NCBI RefSeq assembly: GCF_007989105.1
Contig: NZ_BJVK01000007.1
Span: forward strand, 29,906 to 93,905
DNA length: 64,000 nucleotides
DNA from: Lentilactobacillus kefiri
Lineage (GTDB): Bacteria > Bacillota > Bacilli > Lactobacillales > Lactobacillaceae
Reading direction: 5' to 3'
This document shows, piece by piece, positions 7,612-22,242 of this stretch. The position numbers and the translations under genes were made by a program. Each line of letters opens with the position of its first letter. Positions within the stretch are counted from its first letter, which is position 1. The notes beneath the pieces were generated by a model that saw only the letters and a list, made by a program, of their open reading frames with translations, was not told the DNA's origin and ran no database searches.

Positions 7612-9555
7612 ATGGCTGACAAAAAAGAAACTAAAAAAGAATTAGCTCATGAATACGACGCGAGCCAAATTCAAGTTCTTGAAGGCTTGGAAGCTGTTCG
7701 TAAGCGTCCCGGTATGTATATCGGAACCACCAGCTCACAAGGACTTCATCATCTGGTCTGGGAAATTGTTGATAATGGTATTGATGAGGCACTGGCAGGA
7801 TTTGCCACTAAGATCACCGTTACCGTTGAAAAAGACAACAGTGTTACCGTAACCGATGACGGCCGTGGTATTCCTGTCGACATTCAAAAGAAGACTGGAA
7901 AGCCAGCTTTGGAAACTGTCTTCACGATTCTTCATGCCGGTGGTAAATTTGGCGGCGGCGGATACAAAGTATCTGGTGGACTGCATGGTGTTGGTGCTTC
8001 AGTTGTTAACGCCCTGTCATCCGAACTGGATGTTGAAGTTACCCGTGACGGCAAAGTTTATTACATGGACTTTACTCGGGGTCATGTTAAGACCAAGATG
8101 AAAGTGATTCGTGAAGTATCTGATGATCTTCATGGAACCAAAGTTCATTTCCTTCCGGATCCTGATATTTTCCGGGAAACAACCACTTATGACATTAAAA
8201 TATTAACTGCCCGCTTACGTGAATTAGCATTTTTGAACAAAGGGTTACGGATTGTTATCCGTGATTTGCGTCCTGAAAAGCCTACTGAACAAGATTTCAT
8301 GTATGAAGGCGGTATTAAACATTACGTTGAATACCTTGATCACAGCAAGGATACCTTGCTGGATGAACCAATTTACGTCGAAGGGGTTATGAACGGTATT
8401 ACTGTTGAAGTTGCCATTCAGTACACCAACGATTACCACAATACATTAATGACTTTTACCAATAATATTCACACATACGAAGGTGGAACTCATGAGGAAG
8501 GCTTTAAGCGAGCCTTGACCCGGGTTATCAACGACTATGCGCGGAAGAACAAGTTGTTAAAAGACAACGAACCGAACCTTTCCGGTGAAGATGTCCGTGA
8601 AGGAACGACTGCCGTTGTCAGCATCAAGCATCCCGATCCTCAATTTGAAGGTCAGACAAAGACTAAATTAGGAAACTCTGATGCCAGAACCGTTACCGAT
8701 CGAATCTTTAGTGATCACTTTACGAAATTCCTGATGGAAAATCCTAAGATGGCCCGAAAGATTGTTGATCGTGGACTGTTGGCATCAAAAGCCCGTTCCG
8801 CTGCTAAACGTGCTCGTGAAGTCACTCGGAAAAAGAGTGGTCTTGAAATTAGTAACCTTCCTGGTAAGTTGGCTGATAACACAAGTAAGGATCCTCGAAT
8901 TTCTGAATTGTTCATTGTCGAGGGTGATTCTGCCGGTGGTTCAGCTAAGCAGGGCCGTTCACGTTTGACTCAAGCAATTCTGCCAATTCGTGGAAAGATT
9001 TTAAACGTTGAAAAAGCCAGCATGGATCGGATTTTGGCAAACGAAGAAATTCGTTCACTGTTTACGGCCATGGGAACCGGCTTTGGTGAAGACTTTGATT
9101 TATCAAAGGTCAATTATCACAAGCTCATTATTATGACTGATGCCGATGTCGATGGTGCCCATATTCAGACGTTGTTGTTGACGTTGATTTATCGTTATAT
9201 GCGTCCATTGATTGATGCCGGATATGTGTATGTCGCTCAGCCACCTCTGTATCAGGTTCGCCAAGGAAAGATGTCACGATACATCGATTCCGATGATGAT
9301 TTGAATTCATTCCTGGGAACTTTGCAGCCATCACCAAAACCCGTTATTCAGCGGTACAAAGGTTTAGGTGAAATGGATGCGGAACAATTGTGGGACACAA
9401 CAATGAATCCTGAAAACCGTCACTTGTTGAGAGTTGAATCTTCAGATGCTGCTGAAGCAGATAAGGTCTTCTCAATGTTAATGGGTGACAAGGTGGAACC
9501 ACGACGTGAGTTTATCGAAGATAATGCAACGTTCGTGGAGAATTTGGATGTGTAA
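7612..9555 (+). CDS. gyrB: DNA gyrase subunit B
   Basis: ATPase subunit of the type II topoisomerase that introduces negative supercoils. The 647-residue protein has the GHKL ATP-binding site ([39 protein letters not shown]). It also has the TOPRIM segment with [17 protein letters not shown] and [13 protein letters not shown], and the C-terminal [21 protein letters not shown] motif. GAAGGAG precedes the ATG. The stop codon is followed almost immediately by a structured repeat, with gyrA 370 bases further on. Confidence 0.99.
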
Positions 9556-9561
9556 AGCAGA

Positions 9562-9689
9562 GTGTGACGAGACCCGGGTTGACCCCGGAGTGTAAGGCGG
9601 AAATTTAAATGATGAATGGTTTTTGTTCATCATTTGAATTTTTGACTTACACAGTAGGGGTCAGGGTCGTCGAAACACGTTTCGGCTAG
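9562..9689 (+). repeat. Structured repeat, copy A (after gyrB)
   Basis: Starts GTGTGACGAG and ends with the hairpin CGAAACACGTTTCG plus GCTA. Between them is a long interrupted hairpin. CGA/TCG (with a bulged G) leads to GACCC/GGGTC, then TGACCCC/GGGGTCA, GTGTAAG/CTTACAC and a terminal AAATGATGAA/TTCATCATTT stem. It begins 7 bases after the gyrB stop. Copies B and C keep the same architecture with different stem sequences. Confidence 0.85.
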
Positions 9690-9690
9690 A

Positions 9691-9811
9691 GTGTGACGAG
9701 CAACGGGTGATGCGGTTTCTAAGGGTGTTTTGGCTGAAACCCTGATTTTGGGTTTGAGTCAAAGCACGCTTAGAAGTTAGCATCAGTTGCGTCGAAACAC
9801 GTTTCGGCTAG
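9691..9811 (+). repeat. Structured repeat, copy B (tandem with copy A)
   Basis: Same termini as copy A (GTGTGACGAG and GTCGAAACACGTTTCGGCTA). Its stems are GCAAC/GTTGC, TGATGC/GCATCA and TTCTAAG/CTTAGAA, each changed on both sides relative to copy A. The bulged G, the GGG bulge and the internal loop are kept. It directly abuts copy A. The remaining 110 bases to gyrA hold a parS-like site and the gyrA ribosome site. Confidence 0.85.
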
Positions 9812-9874: not shown

Positions 9875-9890
9875 TGTTTCACATGAAACA
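9875..9890. promoter_or_regulatory. parS-like site upstream of gyrA
   Basis: TGTTTCACATGAAACA matches the bacterial parS consensus TGTTNCACGTGAAACA with one central change (G to A). ParB/Spo0J-family proteins nucleate at such sites near origins to load SMC and segregate the chromosome. The fully consensus copy lies on the other side of gyrA. Confidence 0.7.
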
Positions 9891-9923
9891 TCAGAACGAA
9901 ACCCATGAATGGAGGTAAATAAT

Positions 9924-12485
9924 TTGGCGAATAATAAAGACAACCATGATCAACCAATTGCTGGTCGAGTGACCAACGTTGATCTGTCTAAAAAAATGCG
10001 AACGTCATTTCTTGACTACGCCATGAGTGTTATTGTTGCCCGTGCGCTTCCTGATGTCCGTGATGGGTTAAAGCCTGTTCACCGACGTATTTTGTATGAT
10101 ATGCATGAATTGGGTGTTACACCTGATAAACCTTATAAAAAATCAGCCAGAATTGTTGGGGATGTTTTAGGTAAGTATCATCCCCATGGTGACACGGCTG
10201 TTTATGAATCAATGGTTCGGATGGCTCAAGATTTCAGTTACCGTTATATGTTGGTTGATGGTCACGGAAACTTTGGTTCAGTCGATGGTGATGGTGCTGC
10301 GGCGATGCGTTATACCGAAGCCCGTTTAAGTAAAATTGCCATGGAAATGCTGCGGGATATCAACAAAGATACCATTGATTTCCAACCCAACTACGATGGA
10401 ACCGAACGTGAACCAACCGTTTTGCCATCACGATTCCCCAACCTCCTTGTTAACGGAGCGTCAGGAATTGCCGTTGGTATGGCGACTAACATTCCACCTC
10501 ACAATTTGTCGGAAGTTATCAGTGCAATTCATGTTTTGATGAAGAACCCCGACGCTACCACAGCAGATTTGATGGAAGTTTTGCCAGGACCTGATTTCCC
10601 AACCGGTGGAGTTGTCATGGGTAAGTCCGGAATCCGGAAAGCTTATGAAACTGGTAAAGGATCAATCATTGTCCGTGCCAAAGTTGAAATTGAAGGTGAA
10701 GCAGGCGGCAAACAAAGAATCATTGCTACCGAATTGCCTTACATGGTTAACAAAGCCAAATTAATTGAGCGAATTGCTGAATTAGCTCGTGATAAGCGAA
10801 TTGAAGGAATCACCGATATTAACGATGAGTCTGACCGTGAAGGAATGCGGGTCGTCATCGATGTTCGGCGGGATGCCAGTGCAGAAGTTATCTTGAACAA
10901 CCTGTATAAATTAACGTTGATGCAGACTTCATTCAGCTTCAACATGTTGGCGATCGTTAAAGGAACTCCAAAGATCCTCAGCTTAAAAGAGATCTTAAAT
11001 TACTACTTGGAACACCAAGTTGAAGTTATTCAACGACGGACAAAATATGAATTGAATAAGGCTCAGGCAAGAGCTCACATTCTTGAAGGTTTGAGAATTG
11101 CGCTTGATCATATTGATGAAATTATCAAGATCATCCGTGGATCACAGACCGGGGATGTTGCCAAGAACCAATTGATTGAAGGCTTCGGTCTTGATGACAA
11201 ACAGGCTCAAGCAATCCTGGACATGCGTCTGGTCCGTTTGACCGGTTTGGAACGCGAAAAGATTGATAAAGAATACAATCAATTGATGAAAGACATCGAA
11301 GAATACAAAGCAATTCTTGCCAGCCGTGAACGAGTCAACCAAATCATTTATCAAGAATTACTGGAAATCCAAAAGAAATTTGGTGATCCACGTAGAACTG
11401 AACTGTTGGTTGGTGAAGTTCTCAGTCTTGAAGATGAAGATTTAATTGAAGAAGAAGACGTCATTATTTCGTTGACGCATAATGGTTACATCAAGCGACT
11501 TCCAACTTCAGAGTTTAAAGCTCAAAACCGTGGTGGTCGTGGTGTTCAAGGGATGGGTGTTCATAACGATGATTTCGTTGAACATTTAGTATCTACCTCA
11601 ACCCATGATGTTCTGTTATTCTTCACCGATGCCGGTAAGGTTTATCGGATGAAGGGTTATGAAATTCCTGAATACGGCCGTTCAGCCAAGGGAATTCCAG
11701 TTATTAACCTGTTGAACATTGGTAACAATGAAAAGATTCAGGCTGTGATCAACGTTTCTGATAAGAACAAAGATATTGAAAAAGATCTCTTCTTTGTGAC
11801 TTTGATGGGAACTGTTAAGCGCACACCGGTCTCAGATTTTGCCAACATCCGTAGTAATGGTCTGAAGGCGATTAACCTTAAAGATGGCGATCAAGTCAGC
11901 AACGTTTTGATTGCTGATAAAGATCAAAACATTATTATTGGAACCCATCGTGGATATGCGGTCAGCTTTAACGCTGCCGATGTTCGTTCAATGGGACGTT
12001 CCGCAACCGGTGTCCGGGGTGTCAGATTACGTGAAAATGATTACGTCGTTGGTTCTGATATCTTGAAACCCGACAGCGAAGTCTTTATCATTTCTGAAAA
12101 CGGATATGGTAAACGAACTCCAGCTGCCGAATACCCAATTAAAGGTCGTGGTGGTAAGGGTATCAAGACTGCCAACATTACTGAAAAGAATGGGCCACTT
12201 TCCGGATTGACAACTGTTAACGGTGAAGAGGATATTATGCTGATCACTGATCAGGGTGTCATGATCCGATTCAGTGTTGAAGATGTTTCTCAAACCGGCC
12301 GGGCAACCCTTGGTGTTCATTTGATCAGAATGAATGATGGTGCCAAGGTTGCAACAATGGCTAAGGTTGAAAAGCAGGATGATTCCGAAGATGATCAATC
12401 AAAGGATGAGAATTCCGATGATGATCAAGCAACCGATGAGTCCAAGCAGGATAATGATCAAGATTCAAATTCAGATAATCAATAA
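9924..12485 (+). CDS. gyrA: DNA gyrase subunit A
   Basis: DNA-cleaving subunit of gyrase. Starting at TTG 9924 (GGAGG 8 bases upstream) it is 853 residues. An in-frame ATG at 9909 overlaps the ribosome site and is unlikely. The quinolone-determining region reads [19 protein letters not shown], and the catalytic Tyr sits in [11 protein letters not shown]. Six beta-pinwheel blades follow, including the GyrA box [12 protein letters not shown]. The last 40 residues are an acidic Asp/Glu/Ser-rich tail, common in lactobacilli and likely disordered. Confidence 0.98.
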
Positions 12486-12549: not shown

Positions 12550-12565
12550 TGTTTCACGTGAAACA
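12550..12565. promoter_or_regulatory. parS site (perfect consensus)
   Basis: TGTTTCACGTGAAACA is an exact 16-base match to the canonical parS palindrome bound by ParB/Spo0J. It lies between the gyrA terminator and the lox promoter, about 8 kb from oriC. Confidence 0.88.
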
Positions 12566-21626: not shown

Positions 21627-22079
21627 ATGAAAGTAATTTTTCTGGAAGATGTCCGTGGCAAGGGTAAACGCGGGGAAGTAAAAGAAGTTCCTGACGGCTA
21701 TGCTCAAAACTTTCTGATTAAAAATGGAAAGGCAAAGGTAGCATCAAAAGCCGCCATGAGCCAACTTAAAGGCCAACAAAAGGCTGAAGAAAAACGTGAA
21801 GAAGAGGAACTTGAGGAATCCAAGCAATTGAAGGCCAAGCTCGAAGACGACAAGACTGTCGTTGAGCTTAAAGCTAAGGCCGGAACTGACGGCCGCCTCT
21901 TCGGTTCAATCCCCAGCAAGCAAATTGCCACAGCACTGGAAAAACAATACGGGGTTAAGCTTGATAAGCGTAAGATTGAATTATCTGAGCCAATCAAAGT
22001 TGCTGGTTACACCAATGTACCAGTTAAGCTGCACACTGATGTAACTGCCAAGATTCGGGTTCATGTTTCTGAAAAATAG
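21627..22079 (+). CDS. rplI: 50S ribosomal protein L9
   Basis: The 150-residue protein has the N-terminal domain [21 protein letters not shown], the long charged connecting helix (about 45-75) and the C-terminal rRNA-binding domain ([16 protein letters not shown]). Its stop codon is followed after one base by structured repeat copy C. Confidence 0.98.
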
Positions 22080-22080
22080 C

Positions 22081-22242
22081 GTGCAACGAGACCCGGGTGG
22101 CCGCGGTGCATAAGTAGAAAATGGCTATTAATGAACGTTCTTTGTTCATTGATAGCCATTTTTTACTTATGTGTAGCGGTCAGGGTTGTCGCCAAGTAGG
22201 CTAGGCAGGCATACAGCTGGCCGTCGAAACACGTTTCTGCTA
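22081..22242 (+). repeat. Structured repeat, copy C (after rplI)
   Basis: Starts GTGCAACGAG and ends GTCGAAACACGTTTCTGCTA. Stems: CGA/TCG with bulged G, GACCC/GGGTT, TGGCCGC/GCGGTCA, CATAAG/CTTATG and a terminal AATGAA/TTCATT hairpin. It keeps the GGG bulge of copies A and B. A 30-base insertion separates the main hairpin from the conserved 3' hairpin. Two stem pairs are G-U in the plus-strand RNA only. The remaining 118 bases to dnaB hold only a TACAAT-type promoter near 22315. Confidence 0.85.

Follow-up and report, generated by a model that had tools for sequence, protein, structure and literature searches.

YPAL elements favor sites just after stop codons, and EFAR elements are small repeats in Enterococcus faecalis. 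In the sections of PMC3733652 that deal with GTAG/CGTC-tagged REPs, these elements are described as dispersed palindromes that measure 20-40 bp, carry GTAG or CGTC as an unpaired tag, and lie mostly downstream of genes, often less than 20 bp from the 3' end. The termini of GTAG REPs often supply a TAG stop codon, and REPs are thought to act as RNA (PMC3733652). EFAR is named there among the MITEs, and the word Lactobacillus is absent from the main text of that paper. The passages of PMC2229807 on the YPAL (RU-2) and ERIC elements of enterobacteria describe repeats of 100-200 bp with highly paired transcripts and with both empty and filled sites, for which an effect on the stability of upstream mRNA has been proposed; YPAL target duplications span 3-26 bp. 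The same source describes RUP of Streptococcus pneumoniae, an intergenic repeat of 107 bp with 108 occurrences in a single genome, IS630-Spn1-like terminal inverted repeats, and TA targets (PMC2229807). The repeat of lactobacilli that we describe here is comparable to REP and YPAL elements, yet our best reading is that it constitutes a new family. By description, YPAL may differ from it in having target duplications and RUP in its terminal inverted repeats and TA targets; RUP is like it as an intergenic repeat of similar length with many copies, and EFAR resembles it as a small repeat in another member of the same order. Our search of the open-licence literature returned no paper on EFAR and, among the papers listed, no description of the present family, which may still be published elsewhere; passages of PMC2267715, PMC2817692, PMC12320835, and PMC2759123 likewise contain nothing about it.

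The window, a stretch of 64,000 nucleotides from the Lentilactobacillus kefiri genome (G000), contains two tandem copies, A and B, which a preliminary description had placed after gyrB and credited with a common start and end. Both copies are indeed found between gyrB (positions 7612 to 9555, plus strand) and the downstream gene, gyrA (9909 to 12485, plus strand). Among named records, GyrB comes nearest to Lentilactobacillus, with 97% to L. dabitei, which places the window in this genus. Copy A occupies 9559 to 9688 on the plus strand (7-bp P2 subtype; core from AGTG to CACGTTT at 9561-9682), with the TAA stop codon of gyrB 5 nt upstream of its core, and it is common to two relatives, G021 and G022, at the gyrB-gyrA site. 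Copy B (9688 to 9810, plus strand; 6-bp P2 subtype; core at 9690-9804) lies between copy A and gyrA, and among the 22 genus members viewed it is found at the gyrB site of its own genome only. The third copy that had been claimed was located at 22078 to 22236 on the plus strand, where it starts within the TAG stop codon of the gene for ribosomal protein L9 (21627-22079). Its 3' arm contains an inserted REP-like module of 31 nt, by eye a GTAG and a short hairpin (22192 to 22222, plus strand), with GTCG on either side. This module is also present at three other loci (L009, L015, and L017), at the same insertion point and with GTCG on each flank. When the window is searched for the terminal 20-mer with up to 3 mismatches, 3 occurrences are found compared with 0.01 expected, and the start motif alone shows no significant enrichment in the window (3 found, 2.6 expected). 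Flanking gyrA are two palindromes that we take to be parS-like, TGTTTCACATGAAACA at 9875-9890 before the gene and TGTTTCACGTGAAACA at 12550-12565 after it. Most of the genus members viewed (22 in all) have the TGTTTCACATGAAACA palindrome, slightly varied, in their gyrB-gyrA gap.

Insert-free cores of the repeat measure 113-122 nt and start with AGAG. Read from the outside inward, AGA is followed by a 4-bp helix (GTGT/ACAC or GTGC/GCAC, and GGGC/GCCC in another genus), a GA/RR loop, a CGA/TCG pairing with a bulged G, and a 5-bp helix. Further inward, a bulge of GGG or GTTT on the 5' side precedes a helix of 6-7 bp, and innermost are a GGW loop facing GTTA or AGTA, a helix with a TAAG/CTTA core, and a long variable hairpin. 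By eye, the 3' tail is of at least two types, and some copies carry the 31-nt REP-like insert. The arm replacements between copies A and B that had been named at the outset are all present, as are the bulged G, the GGG bulge, and the TAAG/CTTA core, and both copies fold as drawn, with z-scores of -9.8 for copy A and -9.4 for copy B relative to dinucleotide shuffles. In contrast to REPs, the lactobacillar unit is about 120 nt long and has fixed internal bulges and an AGAG start; the 31-nt insert of some copies looks REP-like. Compared by description, it is like YPAL and ERIC elements in its size, in its paired transcripts (predicted here), in its empty and filled sites, and in the effect on mRNA that we propose below.

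Compensatory change between the copies had been read as the product of selection on a structure, and an alignment of 88 rows from two genomes supports this reading when set against controls. The alignment was made with the model and so leans towards structure, and what survives this lean is gauged by the control in which partners are slid; the alignment also retains one opposite-strand row (L310 8811). Of 3679 cells in the 88 rows, 97.8% are paired, compared with 69.6% after shuffling and at most 44.1% when partners are slid. Double changes affect 38 of the 42 pairs (31 in shuffles) and 974 cells (261 in shuffles), while both A-T pairs inside TAAG/CTTA are invariant in all 88 rows. We also counted isolated mismatches, with G-T and A-C given equal status in the pairing scheme. 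Across 144 elements there are 171 G-T, 15 A-C, and 62 other mismatches, and by element the G-T to A-C count is 102 versus 5. Among 28 representatives with less than 70% identity, the wobble count falls to 22 G-T versus 5 A-C (p = 0.0015), or 15 versus 4 by element (p = 0.019), and we count this fall upon removal of close relatives against our main reading. Since isolated G-T mismatches far outnumber A-C mismatches, it is the sense strand that appears to fold. A sense RNA tolerates wobbles on this strand, and sense single-stranded DNA could do likewise.

Pairing is also kept in copies that occupy corresponding sites in different genomes. From 13 ortholog pairs we chose the 6 that were judged alike enough for alignment, and in 5 of these the number of broken pairs is clearly below that predicted by random placement (P < 0.01), with P = 0.054 for the sixth. 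In one ortholog pair (L271:2157), double changes number 5 and a single pair is broken, compared with 7.8 broken pairs expected. Three comparisons of the gyrB copy A orthologs give P values of 0.12-1, for sequences too similar to judge. Compensation in place may be partly apparent, since many ortholog sites hold a different subfamily, so that replacement would account for part of it.

A covariance model and a search of the Lactobacillaceae had been suggested as checks, and the model (R1) derives from 10 B-subtype copies and scores other subtypes lower. Copy B is the top match in its own genome, at 141 bits, and is also among the 10 input rows. The own-genome search returned 77 matches, of which 25 were the same hairpins read on the opposite strand and were taken out by hand; with copy A added, locus L004 removed as a duplicate, a partial copy of 75 nt excluded, and two weak extra matches kept, about 53 family places are obtained. 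For a relative, G006, 31 of 122 matches were likewise opposite-strand readings taken out by hand, and 91 copies were counted in the 2.4 of 2.51 Mb seen. Among relatives, at least 17 of 41 genomes match, all of them within the 24 genomes of the same genus, and the other 17 genomes have no listed match. The seven Lentilactobacillus genomes with no match among the matches listed (G001, G002, G007, G014, G017, G020, and G023) are all of 2.1 Mb or less, and two of them are less than 90% complete. Within the Lactobacillaceae, matches occur in at least 42 of 151 genomes and at least 18 of 40 genera. Per-genome copy counts are lower bounds, with 87 candidates scored per genome in the search of relatives and 23 in that of the Lactobacillaceae. 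Matches are also present in 92 plasmid records from several lactobacilli, and phage records gave no match. As expected from the preliminary description, which knew of no named class, Rfam holds no match to the family: at the gathering threshold it returned only a tRNA in the window, and at E ≤ 1 it returned, for four loci, four microRNA models as well as IS009, with scores that fall well short of the respective thresholds. Like MITEs, the repeat is dispersed and multi-copy and has empty and filled sites. A match to MITEs had been named as an outcome that would speak against a selected structure; the family does belong partly in that company, as a dispersed, mobile-like repeat.

The position of the repeat relative to genes, which were called with a simple codon-usage caller, is distinctive. 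All 144 copies lie outside the called genes, and about half begin where a gene on the same strand has its stop codon, most often with AGAGTG following a T and thereby supplying TAG. Starts between -9 and +10 nt from a same-strand stop codon account for 42 of 91 copies in G006 and 29 of 53 in G000, and the commonest start is -2, at which the element's AG completes the TAG (18 of 91 and 14 of 53, respectively). The upstream gene is on the same strand for 72 and on the opposite strand for 19 of the 91 copies in G006; for the 53 copies in G000, the corresponding numbers are 40 and 5, with none called for 8. A further 19 copies in G006 lie 100-200 nt from a stop codon, a distance that is expected for second tandem copies and was taken without a one-by-one check. 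Within 25 nt of a stop codon in G006 there are 43 sense copies and 1 antisense copy, compared with 4 copies within 25 nt of a gene start, and the element-adjacent genes end in TAG in 29 of 43 cases versus 408 of 1794 for G006 genes overall. The 43 sense copies are found at 27 leading-strand and 16 lagging-strand genes. We therefore dropped replication strand as the cause of orientation, given that orientation at stop codons tracks the gene on both replication strands. This orientation, together with the wobbles on the sense strand, favors RNA over a cruciform, two forms that had been proposed side by side.

In other genera, 3 of the 9 loci viewed start exactly at a stop codon (L343, L347, and L348) and 6 do not; L071 likewise starts exactly at a stop by eye. 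The emphasis that the preliminary description had placed on gyrB holds insofar as copies A and B are there, but gyrB is not special, and copies occur at many genes. Proximity to the 3' ends of open reading frames, with TAG sometimes supplied by the element, is a feature that the lactobacillar repeat shares with REPs. Its placement at stop codons thus has precedent, since REPs are described as often lying less than 20 bp from gene ends and GTAG REPs as often supplying TAG (PMC3733652).

Comparison of genomes indicates that copies are gained and lost. For 30 of the 53 copies in G000, the upstream reading frame could be compared with that of G006, and the ends of the upstream proteins agree in all 30 comparisons. 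The facing site in G006 is occupied in 16 cases (15 by script and 1 by eye) and empty in 14, and 3 of the 14 empty sites contain remnants of the element's start or end. At the 14 empty sites, the stop codons in G000 and G006, respectively, are TAG/TAA (4), TAA/TAA (6), TAG/TAG (2), TAG/TGA (1), and TGA/TAG (1). At the gyrB site, a different subfamily is found in G004, G010, and G016, and 16 of the 22 genus members lack a complete element, with element-like starts in G008 and G013. Three copies in G006 are 98-99% identical at unrelated loci, and their 5' edge is sharp at AGAG. These copies (C1 450143, 612302, and 2139568) share the element and about 98 further nt, as far as the base of a terminator-like hairpin, and the T run after that hairpin is not part of the shared stretch. 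Two of these most alike copies lie 34 and 26 nt past a stop codon and one lies past an opposite-strand gene, which indicates that a stop codon is not a necessary landing site for fresh copies.

The element's route of spread was considered in light of the enzymes encoded by these genomes. No consistent target duplication was seen by eye, the flanks being too diverged. The Y1 tyrosine transposase domain (PF01797) was not found in G000 or G006, and a RAYT/IS200 mobilizer was dropped for the L. kefiri genome on that account; this sets the repeat apart from the REP/RAYT system. PF01797 is present in 7 of the 24 genus genomes. Among the ten genomes with at least 60 matches, it is missing in seven (G000, G004, G006, G008, G013, G021, and G022) and present in G005, G010, and G016, in G010 only as short pieces near contig starts. 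In our view the lactobacillar repeat is distinguished by its size, its fixed bulges, its orientation in the sense direction at stop codons, and the absence of Y1 from seven of ten copy-rich genomes. A reverse transcriptase was not found in G000 or G006, and spread by reverse transcription was dropped for that reason; the enzyme is present in 8 of the 24 genus genomes, of which G010 and G016 alone belong to the copy-rich ten.

We assign a probability of roughly 55% to the reading that the family is a non-autonomous mobile repeat, often at stop codons, whose sense strand is predicted to form a hairpin, likely as 3'-UTR RNA acting in cis. Against it we weigh the copies whose upstream gene is on the opposite strand or went uncalled, the 6 of 9 loci of other genera without an exact stop at their start, and the negative results for Y1 transposase and reverse transcriptase in G000 and G006. 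The element would likely be transcribed as the 3' UTR of the upstream mRNA, where the hairpin may shield the message from 3' exonucleases; if the hairpin begins at the stop, nucleases would have little unpaired 3' UTR on which to act. Its first 13 or so bases would probably lie beneath a terminating ribosome, which the hairpin could perhaps sense. The repeat likely spreads as a non-autonomous mobile element, by a route and an enzyme that we can only surmise, and the simplest account of its distribution is that copies are kept where an RNA hairpin is useful or harmless. It is also conceivable, though we regard it as unlikely, that insertion is guided to stop codons, with the element entering after the T of the stop, restoring TAG with its own first two bases, and doing so nearly always in the sense orientation. 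If so, targeting would be tied to translation termination or to mRNA, there being no evident common flanking sequence; what makes this possibility less probable is that none of the three most alike copies sits exactly at a stop. These findings describe a gene-end repeat family, large and structured, in food-related bacteria; it is absent from Rfam, and its placement preference (a start at the stop codon, on the sense strand) is sharp enough for testing. The natural variants within one genome could serve to ask whether a hairpin at the stop codon sets the lifetime of an mRNA, and the family raises the question of how stop codons come to be occupied by a small element for which no enzyme is known.

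A purely selfish MITE- or REP-like element, with a structure that serves mobility only and a stop position that reflects tolerance or target choice rather than host benefit, is a possibility that we hold to be real but doubtful. The repetition itself, the near-identical copies, the empty sites, the losses on plasmids, and the seven of 24 genus members without a copy among the matches listed are all in keeping with it. It fits poorly with the wobble bias of the sense strand, with the pairs kept in shared copies, and with the occupation of 16 of 30 compared gene ends in both genomes despite there being 91 elements per 1794 called genes in G006. That the repeat is an unusual transcription terminator seems improbable to us, even though it is a stable hairpin at gene ends. 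Short same-strand gaps are rare with an element (1 of 25, versus 574 of 1239 without), and in same-strand pairs a terminator-like hairpin follows the element in 5 of 24 cases, versus 262 of 665 without an element; both counts speak for a terminator. An intrinsic terminator, however, has a long T run after its hairpin, and the T runs here are only 3 to 5 long in the tails viewed, which in one set were 60 of 100; in convergent pairs a terminator-like hairpin follows in 7 of 18 cases with an element and 185 of 444 without. The family is therefore not a plain terminator, because its T runs are short and, in convergent pairs, terminator-like hairpins are about as frequent as elsewhere.

Very unlikely, in our view, is a site for recombination of single-stranded DNA, such as the attC of integrons or the end of an IS200/IS605 element. 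In gene cassettes, attC sites are positioned after stop codons, and the folded strand of attC is the bottom one. The lactobacillar repeat shares the position after stops, has conserved bulges within an otherwise variable hairpin, and in some copies carries a REP-like insert, but its wobble bias is that of the sense strand, gyrB stays put while the element comes and goes, and no Y1 transposase accompanies it in G000 or G006. Hammerhead, kink-turn, group II intron, and retron structures each require particular core letters, and we dropped all four by eye because these letters are missing or fall within covarying pairs.

Plasmids provide further views of the repeat at gene ends. On plasmids with a conserved mgtC neighbor, loss of the hairpin has taken two forms. 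Five further mgtC plasmids (L336-L340) comprise one that keeps the element, three with one shortened form, and one with another, with the junctions at a short repeat. On beer-spoilage plasmids, a copy is found at the end of horA, and the coding sequence enters the element and stops within it. In the case of an L. brevis plasmid (L179, 3001-3109), this transporter gene ends inside the element, and the tail QSATSNG that follows YVKN is encoded by the repeat.
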